NCBI GenBank assembly: GCA_913055575.1 | Contig: CAJXLI010000004.1 | Location: 1 to 42,723, forward strand | Direction: 5' to 3' | From: an uncultured Ectothiorhodospiraceae bacterium | GTDB lineage: Bacteria > Pseudomonadota > Gammaproteobacteria > Nitrococcales > Halorhodospiraceae | DNA: 42,723 nt | Shown: one piece after another, positions 14,169 to 17,824 of the stretch | Layout: every line of letters begins with the position of its first letter | Position numbering within the stretch: the stretch's first letter is position 1 | Notes under the pieces: generated by a model | Told to the model about the DNA's origin: nothing | Database searches by the model: none | The model's input: the letters and a program-made list of their open reading frames with translations, nothing else | Program-made: the position numbers and the translations under genes

Positions 14169-15317
14169 ATGGTCAAGCCCCCCTCGGCCGACTCCGTCGG
14201 ACTCGTCACGCAGCACAAGGCGGCCTTCGAGGAGCCGCTGCCGCTAGTCTGTGGACGGGAGCTACCTCGGTACGAGCTGGTCTACGAGACCTACGGAGAG
14301 CTCAACCGCGAGGGGACCAACGCCATCCTGGTCTGCCACGCGCTCTCCGGGAACCACCACGCCGCCGGCTACCACTCGGAGCACGACCGCAAGCCGGGCT
14401 GGTGGGAGACCTGCATCGGGCCGGGTAAGCCGCTGGATACCAACCGCTTCTTCGTCGTCTGCAGCAATAACCTCGGCGGCTGCCACGGCTCTACCGGGCC
14501 GGCGAGCATCAACCCGGAGACCGGCAAGCCCTACGGCGACGATTTCCCGGTCGTTACCGTCCGCGACTGGGTGCGCAGCCAGGCGCGGCTCGCCGATCAG
14601 CTGGGCATCCGCCAGTGGGCGGCGGTAGCCGGCGGCAGCCTCGGCGGTATGCAGGCGTTGCAGTGGGCCATCGACTACCCGGACCGGTTGCGCCACGCCA
14701 TCACCATCGCCGCCGCGCCGCGGCTCTCGGCGCAGAATATCGGCTTCAACGAGGTCGCGCGGCAGGCCATCATGAGCGACCCGGAGTTCCACGGCGGGCG
14801 CTACTACGACTACGGCGTCTCGCCCCGACGGGGGCTCGCCGTGGCACGGATGCTGGGCCACATCACCTACCTCTCCGACGACGCCATGCGCGCCAAGTTC
14901 GGACGCGACCTGCGTGGCGACATCAGCTTCGACTTCGAGGAGGTGGACTTCGAGGTCGAGAGCTACCTCCGCTACCAGGGGCAACGCTTCGTGCAGGACT
15001 TCGACGCCAACACCTATCTGCTCATGACCAAGGCGCTCGACTACTTCGACCCGGCCGCCGAACACGACGACGACTTCTCCGCGGCGCTGGCGAGCATCGA
15101 GTGCTCGACGCTGCTGCTCTCCTTCTCCAGCGACTGGCGCTTCCCGCCCTCGCGCTCGCGGGAGATCCTCCGCGCCCTGCTGGAGAACAACAAGCCGGTC
15201 AGCCATATGGAGATCGAGGCTACCCAGGGCCACGACGCCTTCCTGATGCCCATCCAGCGCTACCTGGAGGCCTTCTCCGCCTACATGGGCAACGTCGCCC
15301 GGGAGGTGGGGGCGTGA
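14169..15317 (+). CDS. metX: Homoserine O-acyltransferase (acetyl- or succinyl-)
   Basis: MetX activates homoserine for methionine synthesis. It is an alpha/beta hydrolase-fold enzyme of 382 residues. The nucleophile is Ser157 in [13 protein letters not shown]. The catalytic Asp and His are in [12 protein letters not shown] and [11 protein letters not shown]. Other signatures are [17 protein letters not shown] and [15 protein letters not shown]. Published work on this family shows that MetX proteins of many gammaproteobacteria use succinyl-CoA rather than acetyl-CoA; the sequence alone does not let me decide here. The stop overlaps the metW GTG as GTGA, as in other metXW pairs. Confidence 0.94.
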
Positions 15318-15928
15318 ATCCGCTGCGCCGCGAGCTGGAGATCGTCGCCGACTGGGTGGAGCCGGGCTCCCGCGTCCTGGACCTGGGCTGCGGCGATGGG
15401 GCGCTGCTGCAGTACCTGATCGAGCGCAAGGGGGTTACCGCCTACGGCCTGGAGCTCGACCCGCGCAAGGTCACGGGCTGCATGGCCCGCGGGGTCAACG
15501 TGGTGCGCGCGGACCTCGACGAGGGGCTGAGCGATTTCCACCGCGACAGCTTCGACCACGTCATCATGAGCCAGACCATCCAGGCGGTCCGCTACCCGGA
15601 CAAGCTCCTCGAGGACATGCTGCGGGTGGCCCACCACGGCATCGTCACGTTCCCCAACATCGGCTACTGGCGGCTGCGCGTGCAGCTGCTGCTCCAGGGG
15701 CGCATGCCCCGCAGCCCGGCGCTGCCCAACGCCTGGTACAACTCCCCGAACATCCACCTGTGCACAGTCAGCGACTTCGAGCGCCTGTGCGCCAGCATGG
15801 GCGTGCAGATCCGCGAGCGCCGCCTGCTCGACCGCGCCCACCGCTCCACGCCGGTGATCGACCTCGCCCCCAACCTGCTCGGCGAGATCGCCATCTACCG
15901 TTTCGTACGCGGCAGCGAGTCGCTGTAG
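15314..15928 (+). CDS. metW: Methionine biosynthesis protein MetW
   Basis: This class I SAM-dependent methyltransferase-fold protein of 204 residues is nearly always encoded next to metX. It is needed for, or enhances, MetX-dependent homoserine acylation in several proteobacteria. Motif I is [16 protein letters not shown], followed by [32 protein letters not shown] and the family-specific [23 protein letters not shown] substrate to be methylated is not established. GTG at 15314 overlaps the metX stop. A terminator-like hairpin begins about 20 bases after its stop. Confidence 0.94.
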
Positions 15929-15945: not shown

Positions 15946-15982
15946 GGGCCCGGCCTGCTGCGCACGGGCCCGCAGGCTTTTT
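15946..15982 (+). terminator. Terminator-like hairpin with competing upstream arm (metXW end / speE-like leader)
   Basis: GCCTGC (15953-15958) pairs with GCAGGC (15972-15977) and is followed by five T residues (15978-15982), an intrinsic-terminator shape. A second perfect pair, GGGCCCG (15946-15952) and CGGGCCC (15965-15971), interleaves with it, so the two stems cannot easily coexist. A promoter-like TTCGTA-18-TAGAAT (15902-15931) overlaps the metW stop upstream. Only 24 bases separate the T-run from the next start codon, so transcription of the next gene must pass through this element. Confidence 0.5.
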
Positions 15983-16006: not shown

Positions 16007-16693
16007 ATGCAGCCCGAGTATGTCCGATACAACCAGACGATCGTGGAGCGGCACCGCTCCCCCTACCAGGATATCGTGATCGCCTACGATCCGGCCGTCG
16101 GGCACCTGCTCTACCTCAACGACGACCTCCAGATCGCCAACGCCGACGAGCCGTATAACCGGACGCTCATCGAGCCGCTACGCCAGCGCGGCGCCGTCGG
16201 CGACGTGCTCATCCTCGGCGGCGGTGACGGCGGGGCCCTGCGGGCGCTGCTCGACGCCGGCGCCCGCCGGGCCGTGCTCGTGGATATCGACGCCGAGGTC
16301 ATCGAGCTCTCCCGGCAGTACCTGCCCGACCTGTGCGGTGACGCCTTCGACCGCGAGAGCGCCGAGGTCGTCGTCGGCGACGCCTTCGCCCGCCTCGAGG
16401 CCGAGGAGCGCTGGGACGGGATCGTCTACGACCTGACCATGGACCCGGTCCGCGAGGACCAGCCACGCACCGCGTATATCCGCGAGATCCTCGGCAAGAT
16501 CGCGCGGCGCCTACGCCCGGGCGGGGTGATGTCGATGCAGTGCTGCGGCACCGACGAGCCCGGCCTGCGCGAGGAGATCCGCGCGGGGCTGGACCATACC
16601 TTCGCCGAGTGGAATGATTGGGAGGTGCAGATCCCCTCCTTCGACATCCCCTGGGTCTTCGCATGGGCGCGCGCCCCGCAGGAGGAGCCTTGA
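16007..16693 (+). CDS. Atypical polyamine aminopropyltransferase (spermidine synthase-like)
   Basis: This 228-residue protein has a spermidine-synthase fold and would transfer aminopropyl from decarboxylated SAM to a diamine. The N-terminal strand domain has HRSPYQDIVIAYD and LLYLNDDLQIANADE. The methyltransferase-like core carries DVLILGGGDGGALRALL, AVLVDIDAEVIELSRQYLP and VVVGDAFARL. Two features differ from SpeE. The catalytic D-x-T-D-P region reads YDLTMDP, with an extra residue. The E-F-x-Y-H-E-M region reads DEPYNRTLIEP, so the substrate may differ. ATG at 16007 has AGGA upstream; an in-frame ATG at 15944 lies inside the hairpin region and is unlikely. It overlaps a deacetylase-family gene as TTGA. 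Confidence 0.8.
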   Translation: MQPEYVRYNQTIVERHRSPYQDIVIAYDPAVGHLLYLNDDLQIANADEPYNRTLIEPLRQRGAVGDVLILGGGDGGALRALLDAGARRAVLVDIDAEVIELSRQYLPDLCGDAFDRESAEVVVGDAFARLEAEERWDGIVYDLTMDPVREDQPRTAYIREILGKIARRLRPGGVMSMQCCGTDEPGLREEIRAGLDHTFAEWNDWEVQIPSFDIPWVFAWARAPQEEP

Positions 16694-17613
16694 CCACCTG
16701 GCTGATCACGCACCCGCAGTGCACGGAGCACGACGCCGGCGACGGACACCCGGAGAGCGCCGAGCGGCTCCAGGCCATCCTCCGGGCCCTGCAGCACCAG
16801 ACCTTCGAGTACGTGCTGCGCGAGACGGCCCCCCGGGCGAGCATCGAGCAGCTCGAGCAGGCCCACGAGCCGGGCTACGTGCGCTCGGTGCTCGACAGCG
16901 TACCCAGCGAGGGGCGCCACGAGCTCGACTCGGATACACGGCTCTGCCCGGCCTCCGGCGAGGCGGCCCTGCGCGCCGCCGGCGCCGTCTGCCACGGTGT
17001 CGACGGCGTCCTCTCGGGCAAGGCCCGGCGCGCCTTCTGCGCGGTACGGCCGCCCGGCCACCACGCCGAGTCGAACCGGGCCATGGGCTTTTGCTTCTTC
17101 AACAATATCGCCGTCGCCGCCGGCTACGCCGTCGCCCACTACGGCCTGCAGCGCGTCGCGATGGTCGACTTCGACGTCCACCACGGCAACGGCACCGAGG
17201 AGATCAGCCGGGGCCGGCCCGGGCTCTACTACTTCTCCACCCACCAGCACCCCCTCTTCCCCGGCACGGGAACTCCCACGGACGACGTCCCGGCGAACAT
17301 CATCAACGCCACCCTCGCCGACGGCGACGGCTCCGAGGCCTTCCGCCGGGCCTTCAACGAGACCATCCTGCCGCGGCTCGACGCCCTGGAGCCGGAGCTG
17401 ATCCTGATCTCCGCCGGCTTCGACGCCCACCGCGCCGATCCACTGGCCACGCTCCACCTGGACGAGACGGACTTCGCCTGGGCCACCCACGAGCTCGGGG
17501 CTGTAGCACGGCGGCACTGCCAGGGGCGGATGGTCTCGGTCCTCGAGGGCGGCTACAACACCGCCATGGTAGGCCGCTGCGCCGCCGCCCACCTGGAGGC
17601 GCTCATGATGTAG
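16690..17613 (+). CDS. Histone deacetylase/acetylpolyamine amidohydrolase superfamily protein
   Basis: This zinc-dependent amidohydrolase has about 307 residues. Family motifs are GDGHPESAERL, the active-site RPPGHHAES, GFCFFNNIAVAAGYA, the zinc-binding DFDVHHGNGTEE, and the second zinc aspartate in LISAGFDAHRADPLA. All expected catalytic residues are present. Bacterial members deacetylate acetylpolyamines, acetyl-lysines or small amides. Overlap with an aminopropyltransferase-like gene makes acetylpolyamine the favoured substrate by inference. The TTG at 16690 forms TTGA with the upstream stop and has GGAGGAG just before it. The downstream 56-codon gene follows after 40 bases. Confidence 0.88.
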   Translation: MTTWLITHPQCTEHDAGDGHPESAERLQAILRALQHQTFEYVLRETAPRASIEQLEQAHEPGYVRSVLDSVPSEGRHELDSDTRLCPASGEAALRAAGAVCHGVDGVLSGKARRAFCAVRPPGHHAESNRAMGFCFFNNIAVAAGYAVAHYGLQRVAMVDFDVHHGNGTEEISRGRPGLYYFSTHQHPLFPGTGTPTDDVPANIINATLADGDGSEAFRRAFNETILPRLDALEPELILISAGFDAHRADPLATLHLDETDFAWATHELGAVARRHCQGRMVSVLEGGYNTAMVGRCAAAHLEALMM

Positions 17614-17653
17614 GGGCCTGCCCCCGGGCCCCGTGCAACGTAGAGGTACGACG

Positions 17654-17824
17654 ATGACGAGCGATCAACAGCAGGCCCGCACCGACAACGAGCCACGGGC
17701 ACTGTCGGACCACCGGGTCCGCGAGAGGCACAGCCCGGAGCAGATCCAGCACTGGCGGGAGGAGGCGGAACGCCACCACCGGCGGTGGTTCAGCGTCATG
17801 AACAACCCCTACGGCCGAGAGTAG
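17654..17824 (+). CDS. Small hypothetical protein, 56 residues
   Basis: I do not recognise this gene. It encodes a hydrophilic, charged peptide beginning MTSDQQQARTDNEP and ending MNNPYGRE. The middle is helix-prone and rich in Arg, His and Trp (SPEQIQHWREEAERHH). It has no cysteines, no signal peptide and no membrane segment. The start is supported by AGAGG seven bases before the ATG, and codon use matches the neighbours. It is downstream of the deacetylase-family gene on the same strand and might be cotranscribed. It could be a small regulator, but nothing shows this. Confidence 0.6.
   Translation: MTSDQQQARTDNEPRALSDHRVRERHSPEQIQHWREEAERHHRRWFSVMNNPYGRE

Follow-up and report, generated by a model that had tools for sequence, protein, structure and literature searches.

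The DNA window analysed here is a 42,723-nt stretch, contig C4 (CAJXLI010000004.1) of an uncultured Ectothiorhodospiraceae genome (GCA_913055575.1; 2.0 Mb, 155 contigs, 83.71% completeness), and the named records closest to it belong to Halorhodospira and Ectothiorhodospiraceae. On its forward strand, a gene for a 228-aa aminopropyltransferase (APT; 16007..16693, with an ATG start at 16007 and a TGA stop at 16691-16693) is followed by a gene for a 307-aa Zn-dependent deacetylase (16690..17613, with a TTG start at 16690 and a stop at 17611-17613); the stop of the one and the start of the other overlap by 4 bp and share the letters TTGA. We consider it probable that the APT is a solo enzyme of the spermine-synthase type, which would use decarboxylated AdoMet (dcAdoMet), most likely on spermidine, and that the deacetylase is a separate enzyme of the lysine-deacylase type. 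An initial annotation of this DNA had taken the two genes and a 56-residue gene behind them as a candidate polyamine unit. Its three reading frames, the overlap and the two unusual motifs of the first enzyme (YDLTMDP and DEPYNRTLIEP) are all present as it described them, and the atypical aminopropyltransferase that it suspected is a real, divergent member of that family by Pfam score, tree and structural model; the joint pathway that it proposed has fared less well.

That the APT is a real, conserved and divergent aminopropyltransferase is strongly supported. It scores 80.8 bits against PF01564 (cut-off 22.9), which places it within the family, and remains far under the cut-offs of the SpeE equivalogs (TIGR00417, 91 against 249.55 bits; NF002010/PRK00811, 111.1 against 260; NF002956/PRK03612, 112.7 against 472). 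The register of canonical SpeE, with its DxTDP loop and YH pair, is not found: the DLTMDP loop is one residue longer and the DEPYN segment one residue shorter. When a profile built from 20 solo forms was aligned to PDB chains, both odd motifs aligned without gaps to human spermine synthase (SMS; sdlaYtra and DLTAVP), as did the C-terminal end (VPSYLELWVF). In the remaining four chains of the alignment shown (7xif, 3anx, 1uir and 6bq2, two of them from Thermus), each odd motif comes with a one-residue gap. The odd motifs are no pointer to an unknown pathway but the hallmark of a subfamily, and they are common to human SMS.

Residues D201, D276 and T178 of human SMS are named in PMC3585406, and the role of Asp201 is treated both there and in PMC3725402. 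Human numbering was obtained by assuming a 15-residue construct offset, which reproduces these three residues. On this basis Asp74, Asp142, Tyr50, Asn51 and Ile214 of the window APT correspond to Asp201, Asp276, Tyr177, Thr178 and Glu353, respectively. Asp74 lies in the GGGDGG motif (codon at 16226..16228, +, counted from the reading frame), and Asp142 in the YDLTMDP loop (residues 141-147; 16427..16447, +); both would thus be active-site residues. Asp74, Asp142, Tyr50, Gln42, Gln178 and Trp216 are invariant in all 42 rows of the subfamily alignment. According to PMC3725402, the active-site Asp of GGGDGG goes with dcAdoMet rather than AdoMet. A local change was seen near the C-terminus (residues 213-217; 16643-16657), where Val or Ile takes the place of the Glu two positions ahead of the invariant Trp, and an Asp appears one place earlier, in 8/8 Halorhodospira-type rows. 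This replacement falls on the same branch on which the APT gene came to lie beside the deacetylase gene.

A scan of contigs for relatives of the APT gave 220 pattern matches and 164 confirmed relatives, the best 80 of which were used; one of the two scan patterns was the odd motif itself, so that the scan is biased towards motif-bearing forms. The pattern YDL(T/S)(M/S/L)xP is carried by 57 of these best 80 loci. In 38 of the 57 it belongs to the C-terminal part of a longer open reading frame (ORF), mostly of 355-378 aa, and 19 are solo forms (18 gamma-type, 1 Balneolaceae). An ESH...H..(P)E stretch, which we take to be the processing site of AdoMet decarboxylase (AdoMetDC), is present in 31 of the 38 longer ORFs, and PF02675 (AdoMet_dc) was found together with PF01564 in each of the 23 fusions (of 38) that were scanned. 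The hosts of the fusions are Nitrospirota, Myxococcota, Thermodesulfobacteriota, Latescibacterota, WOR-3, Stahlbacteria, Omnitrophota, Bacteroidota and Ignavibacteriota, among others. The window APT has no N-terminal AdoMetDC-derived domain and is a solo form. Many of the solo-form records (L038-L055, L057) are presumably from salt- or soda-lake lineages (Halorhodospira, Alkalilimnicola, Aquisalimonas and one Balneolaceae); one metagenome-assembled genome among them is labelled Lysobacteraceae.

A tree was built from 82 rows, after L052, L081, L082 and L093 had been dropped as short, cut or fragmentary. It separates 57 rows (the 37 fusions, the 19 solo forms and human SMS) from the other 25, which are canonical APTs or APTs from the PDB, with support of 99/95. 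The solo rows form a single clade (100/99), to which the fusion L056 is sister at 95/84; a fusion-only clade is not rejected (p-AU 0.41). The tree leans towards a derivation of the solo forms from fusions through loss of the AdoMetDC half. The AF2 model of the window APT (pLDDT 96.1, pTM 0.92) has as its top VIA match 3c6m_C, human SMS with spermine and methylthioadenosine (Z 28.1, rmsd 2.5, 224 residues aligned). A second SMS chain and a yeast spermidine synthase follow, each with a Z of 26.9, and E. coli SpeE reaches 22.8.

An AdoMetDC match was found in 39/39 genomes searched (two of the 39 are repeats by their coordinates, G059 being the same as G014 and G060 the same as G020). Among the 25 fusion genomes, 24 have just one such match, situated in a frame long enough to be that of the fusion, and G073 has two. 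The subfamily provides the single PF01564 match in 5 of 26 non-gammaproteobacterial genomes (G064, G065, G075, G078 and G082). Since the fusion is the sole AdoMetDC match in the former set and the sole PF01564 match in the latter, the subfamily probably carries out real polyamine synthesis in these genomes, and in several non-gammaproteobacterial genomes it is likely to be the only aminopropyltransferase. Most of the other 21 non-gammaproteobacterial genomes (within G061-G086) add a PF01564-matching open frame of at least 700 codons, perhaps a membrane protein with an APT-like domain. All 11 gammaproteobacteria carry a second PF01564 match with a canonical score. The window genome is one such case, with SpeD on contig C68 and a canonical SpeE (DSTDP, YHE) on C66, where it adjoins an apparent speA, called by eye, on the opposite strand.

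The deacetylase scores 293.2 bits against PF00850. In the PDB ranking its matches run from 5ji5 (268 bits) and HDAC6 (262, in two domains of about 130 each) down to 5zmp (182), 5g0x (182) and the HDAH 1zz0 (158); acetylpolyamine amidohydrolase (ApaH) 9gkz reaches only 91, so that the protein is not closest to ApaH. The catalytic residues of the HDAC type (H123 and H124; D161, H163 and D244; E285-G286-G287-Y288) are all present and invariant in 8/8 rows. The gatekeeper triplet is P250-L251-A252 (PLA), and the aligned HDAC6 domains have PKG or PLG. Graf et al. (PMC11532494) give PEG as the triplet of HDAC10 and PIS as that of bacterial ApaH; the window enzyme has neither, Leu251 standing in place of the Glu gatekeeper. 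In the same study, a Glu-to-Leu change made HDAC10 a better lysine deacetylase and a poorer polyamine deacetylase; of the bacterial enzymes tested there, those of cluster 4 were the only ones with polyamine deacetylase activity. Its sub-clusters 1c and 1d, mostly annotated as ApaH, are from alpha- and gammaproteobacteria, and the deacetylase orthologues described here might belong to them; in the passages considered here, the only cluster 1 enzymes from bacteria named as assayed are those of 1b. The initial annotation had assigned the protein to the family that includes acetylpolyamine amidohydrolase. This holds at the level of the Zn-amidohydrolase superfamily, but by scores and by the PLA triplet the enzyme is of the HDAC6/HdaH type. 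It most likely acts on acyl-lysines and has kept a role of its own.

A survey of 59 genomes (from the window's own genome through its genus, family and order to its class) found a homologue of the APT in 25 (at least 46% identity, E 1.5e-51 or better) and some HDAC-type match in 55. In all 12 genomes of the window's family the APT and deacetylase genes are adjacent and on the same strand, with spacings of -4 bp in 7, 4-5 bp in 4 and 19 bp in 1; one of the 12 deacetylase genes is cut by a contig end, and the seven named family loci (L038-L044) are seven of these same 12; L041 is from H. neutriphila DSM 15116. The adjacency is thus not confined to one strain, and the condition under which the initial annotation would have given up the unit, adjacency in this strain only, does not apply. 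Outside the family, a further ten genomes (G012, G014, G016, G017, G019, G025, G029, G031, G041 and G045, mostly drafts) have both the APT and a close orthologue of the deacetylase, and by coordinates the two are adjacent in none; in G016, which is a single contig, they are about 1.4 Mb apart. Conserved linkage is thus seen for the first two genes within the family, but not in the 10 other genomes and not for the third gene. Three more genomes with the APT (G020, G023 and G037) have a weaker HDAC match or none; the homologue in G037 (L024, G037:C173) has one in-frame TGA and is either a decayed copy or a sequence error. Close orthologues of the deacetylase also occur in genomes without this APT (e.g., G013, G018 and G022). 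When the deacetylase was searched by tblastn against all 80 named loci, matches were obtained in L038-L044 only.

Outside the family, the surroundings of the deacetylase gene were sampled in 12 of the 47 genomes searched. In 11 of these (L129-L139; L128 is the exception) it is preceded on its own strand by metX and metW, with 0.08-0.94 kb between the end of metW and the deacetylase gene; Pfam confirms metW in L131, and a DUF4426 gene lies between metW and the deacetylase gene in L138. Family members show the order metX-metW-APT-deacetylase (window; L142), and metW is upstream of the pair in 12/12 loci. In 11 APT loci of other Ectothiorhodospiraceae-type genomes (L045-L055), metW is absent from the available flanks, which differ in length (0.5 kb on the left in L052). 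As the order is metX-metW-deacetylase outside the family and metW-APT-deacetylase inside it, the simplest reading of the gene orders is a single insertion, in which the APT gene would have slipped between metW and a long-resident deacetylase gene. The neighbouring ORFs of the 57 motif-bearing loci form groups of at most 7 loci, mostly of a single lineage, with no conserved APT neighbour outside the family; these ORFs were picked by length, several are antisense artefacts in GC-rich DNA, and the counts were therefore taken from tblastn with named proteins.

A number of results weigh against a spermine synthase that works apart from its neighbour. By overall score, archaeal and Thermus APTs rank above human SMS, both with the profile (7xif 163 bits, 1uir 145, 3c6k 128) and with the single sequence (Pyrobaculum 7xif 115, Thermus 1uir 99.5, 3c6k 71), and in Foldseek E-value order Thermus 1uir comes first and 3c6m_C sixth; the assignment to the spermine-synthase type is therefore made on the indels, the motifs, the C-terminal end and the tree, not on overall score. 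In that tree the branch leading to human SMS is very long (2.27) and may fall inside or outside the bacterial subfamily (87/47), and the two published fusion accessions are not among the rows. A literature search, judged by titles and abstract starts, found no polyamine measurement for Halorhodospira. The junction of the pair has stayed tight over three genera, which hints at a benefit of co-expression that our preferred explanation does not account for. Finally, the position of human Glu353, an acceptor-binding residue, holds Glu in 27/42 rows and Val or Ile in 8/8 family rows (and, by eye, in 12/12 family rows of another APT alignment), so that the acceptor may not be spermidine. Because the site is altered at its acceptor end in this family, our confidence in a spermine-type product is moderate. 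Use of another acceptor (agmatine, diaminopropane, cadaverine or norspermidine) or of the other end of spermidine, giving thermospermine, seems unlikely to us: it would fit the exchanges at the site (Asn51 for Thr178 and Ile214 for Glu353), the high overall scores of archaeal and Thermus APTs and the varied substrate ranges documented for bacterial APTs (PMC11107197), but the motifs align without gaps to those of SMS, and two published fusions make spermine and much less thermospermine (PMC12803844). We regard as extremely unlikely a role as an AdoMet-using methyltransferase similar to putrescine N-methyltransferase (PMT). General methyltransferase profiles do match (Methyltransf_11 just over its cut-off, at 21.9 against 21.2 bits), and PMT evolved from spermidine synthase, in which D103I abolished the original activity and gave rise to a faint initial PMT activity (PMC3725402). 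PMT, however, has Ile where Asp74 of GGGDGG is invariant in 42/42 rows, and members of the subfamily are fused to AdoMetDC, which points to dcAdoMet as the donor; the methyltransferase reading was rejected on these two grounds.

The adjacency of the two genes might also be a frozen accident, with a shared transcript at most and no benefit from co-expression. We see this as possible but somewhat doubtful, and it overlaps with our preferred explanation: one insertion event accounts for all 12 family genomes and the pair is unlinked in 10/10 others, yet across three genera the APT still shows 58-93% identity and has all its active-site residues, and the close junction is retained in 12/12. A functional link of the kind proposed in the initial annotation, in which the APT would extend an N-acetylated amine and the deacetylase would free the product, or acetyl-polyamines would be recycled, appears improbable. 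It would make sense of the 4-bp overlap or short gaps in 12/12 family genomes, of the loss, in the same lineage, of the acidic residue at the Glu353 position, which could suit a neutral acetyl end, and of an APT-agmatinase-ApaH run that exists in two genomes of the order. However, the loss of Glu and the adjacency amount to one event on one branch, close orthologues of the deacetylase are sited at metX-metW in genomes without this APT, and in the bacterial set assayed by Graf et al. acetyl-polyamines were substrates for cluster 4 only. As the deacetylase resembles HDAC6/HdaH, not ApaH, and has Leu as its gatekeeper (PLA rather than PEG or PIS), an acetyl-polyamine cycle is not supported; the case for a joint pathway of the two enzymes is weak, also given the absence of linkage outside the family (0/10). 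A bolder version, in which the Halorhodospira-type solo APT, lacking the acidic residue that the majority of related enzymes have near the end of the acceptor site, would extend an acylated, partly neutral amine that the deacetylase then deprotects, so that these extreme halophiles would obtain a polyamine of unusual kind or length, is very improbable in our view. The literature search, with the same scope as above, brought up nothing on an APT-deacetylase pair.

The run mentioned above is found in G015 (L140:4450-7294, minus strand) and G038 (L141:4477-7260, minus strand), both of the same order as the window, where genes for an APT, an agmatinase-family ureohydrolase and an ApaH-like deacetylase overlap or nearly touch. 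The deacetylase of G015 scores 138 bits with 3men and 52 with 5ji5, the reverse of the ranking of the window deacetylase, and that of G038 is 55% identical to the one of G015. In the APT of this run GDLVDFNDPDD replaces DxTDP. The APT-agmatinase pair is present in 5/5 loci checked (L029-L033), with ApaH beside it in 2/5 within flanks of 1.5 kb. The run is possibly an aminopropylagmatine route with a deacetylase, and it is a more convincing place to look for an acetyl-polyamine unit than the pair in the window.

According to the explanation that we prefer, that of a solo spermine-synthase-type APT next to a lysine deacylase, SpeD encoded elsewhere in the genome would make dcAdoMet and the canonical SpeE would make spermidine. 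The solo APT would then move an aminopropyl group from dcAdoMet to spermidine, its presumed acceptor, giving a spermine-type tetraamine and methylthioadenosine. In an ancestor of the Halorhodospira family its gene would have been inserted between metW and the gene of a lysine-deacylase-type HDAC; the two genes may since have been read in tandem and co-expressed, with the deacetylase removing acyl groups, presumably from lysines. The two seemingly broken motifs mark an aminopropyltransferase of the spermine-synthase type, and Halorhodospira-type and related gammaproteobacteria possess this type in solo form in addition to SpeD and SpeE. Should the enzyme make spermine, extreme halophiles would have a second step of polyamine synthesis that is open to testing. 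It was not until 2024 that bacterial spermine synthases were identified by function, according to PMC11107197, and PMC12803844 traces the animal enzyme to bacterial AdoMetDC-APT fusions; the solo forms are thus useful for finding the residues that set the acceptor.

The 56-aa Arg/His-rich ORF (17654..17824, +), which has no Pfam match, looks like a small protein in its own right, conserved among Halorhodospira-type genomes. It had been considered a third member of the unit, a proposal that was rejected: of the 11 family loci whose sequence extends about 0.5 kb beyond the deacetylase gene, only 2 (the window and its nearest relative) have the ORF directly behind the pair, and in four other named loci it is 0.6-3.4 kb downstream. 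Homologues with 54-73% identity are present in 5 of the 7 named family loci, at 0.07 (L038), 2.0 (L039), 2.4 (L040), 0.6 (L041) and 3.4 kb (L044) downstream of the deacetylase gene; none was found in L042, and the contig of L043 ends before the place. Between the deacetylase gene and the homologue lie an AFG1-type ATPase gene in L039 and a PilZ gene in L044.

Upstream of the APT gene are a gene for a protein with an alpha/beta hydrolase fold (14169..15317, +; PF00561), which we take to be metX, and metW (15314..15928, +; 204 aa, PF07021, 257.2 bits). A terminator-like hairpin lies between metW and the APT gene (15958..15975, +). It is not conserved, a T-run being present in 2 of 12 family loci, and the stretch folds barely better than shuffled sequences (z -0.81); for these reasons a transcription boundary after metW is not claimed. 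A promoter scan found none, and Rfam and tRNA scans of the window gave nothing at their thresholds. Among mobile elements, distant APTs only were found in the plasmid collection (3 records at 29.5-33.3% identity) and in the viral collection (4 contigs at 28-31% identity); polyamine enzymes of viruses are the subject of PMC9992855.

The window APT can be compared with three known types of enzyme. It shares with the bacterial AdoMetDC-APT fusions the DLTM(H/D/E)P-type and D..YN motifs, the C-terminal end and membership of one subfamily, a likeness that is based on the 37 fusions in the tree. It differs in lacking the AdoMetDC half, in having Ile for Glu before the final Trp, and in having Asp for His in DLTMHP. 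The published fusions, a deltaproteobacterial one of 358 aa and a Krumholzibacteria one of 376 aa, make spermidine and spermine and far less thermospermine, and such fusions are the nearest bacterial matches of animal spermine synthase (PMC12803844); Pelagibacter fusions make spermidine and spermine or thermospermine (PMC11107197). Human SMS (3c6k, 3c6m) has both odd motifs without gaps, the same short C-terminus and the best VIA Z-score, but it is only 27% identical to the window APT, has Glu353, sits on a long branch and carries an extra N-terminal AdoMetDC-derived domain (PMC12803844). The canonical SpeE of the same genome (G000:C66) has the fold and the dcAdoMet site in common with the window APT, whereas its DSTDP and YHE motifs and its longer C-terminus set it apart. 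For the deacetylase, HdaH and HDAC6-like lysine deacylases (5ji5, 5zmp, 5g0x and HDAC6) are the best matches and align over nearly the full length. ApaH (9gkz, 3men and 3q9b), by contrast, shares the Zn-amidohydrolase superfamily with it and differs in score and in having PIS where the window enzyme has PLA.

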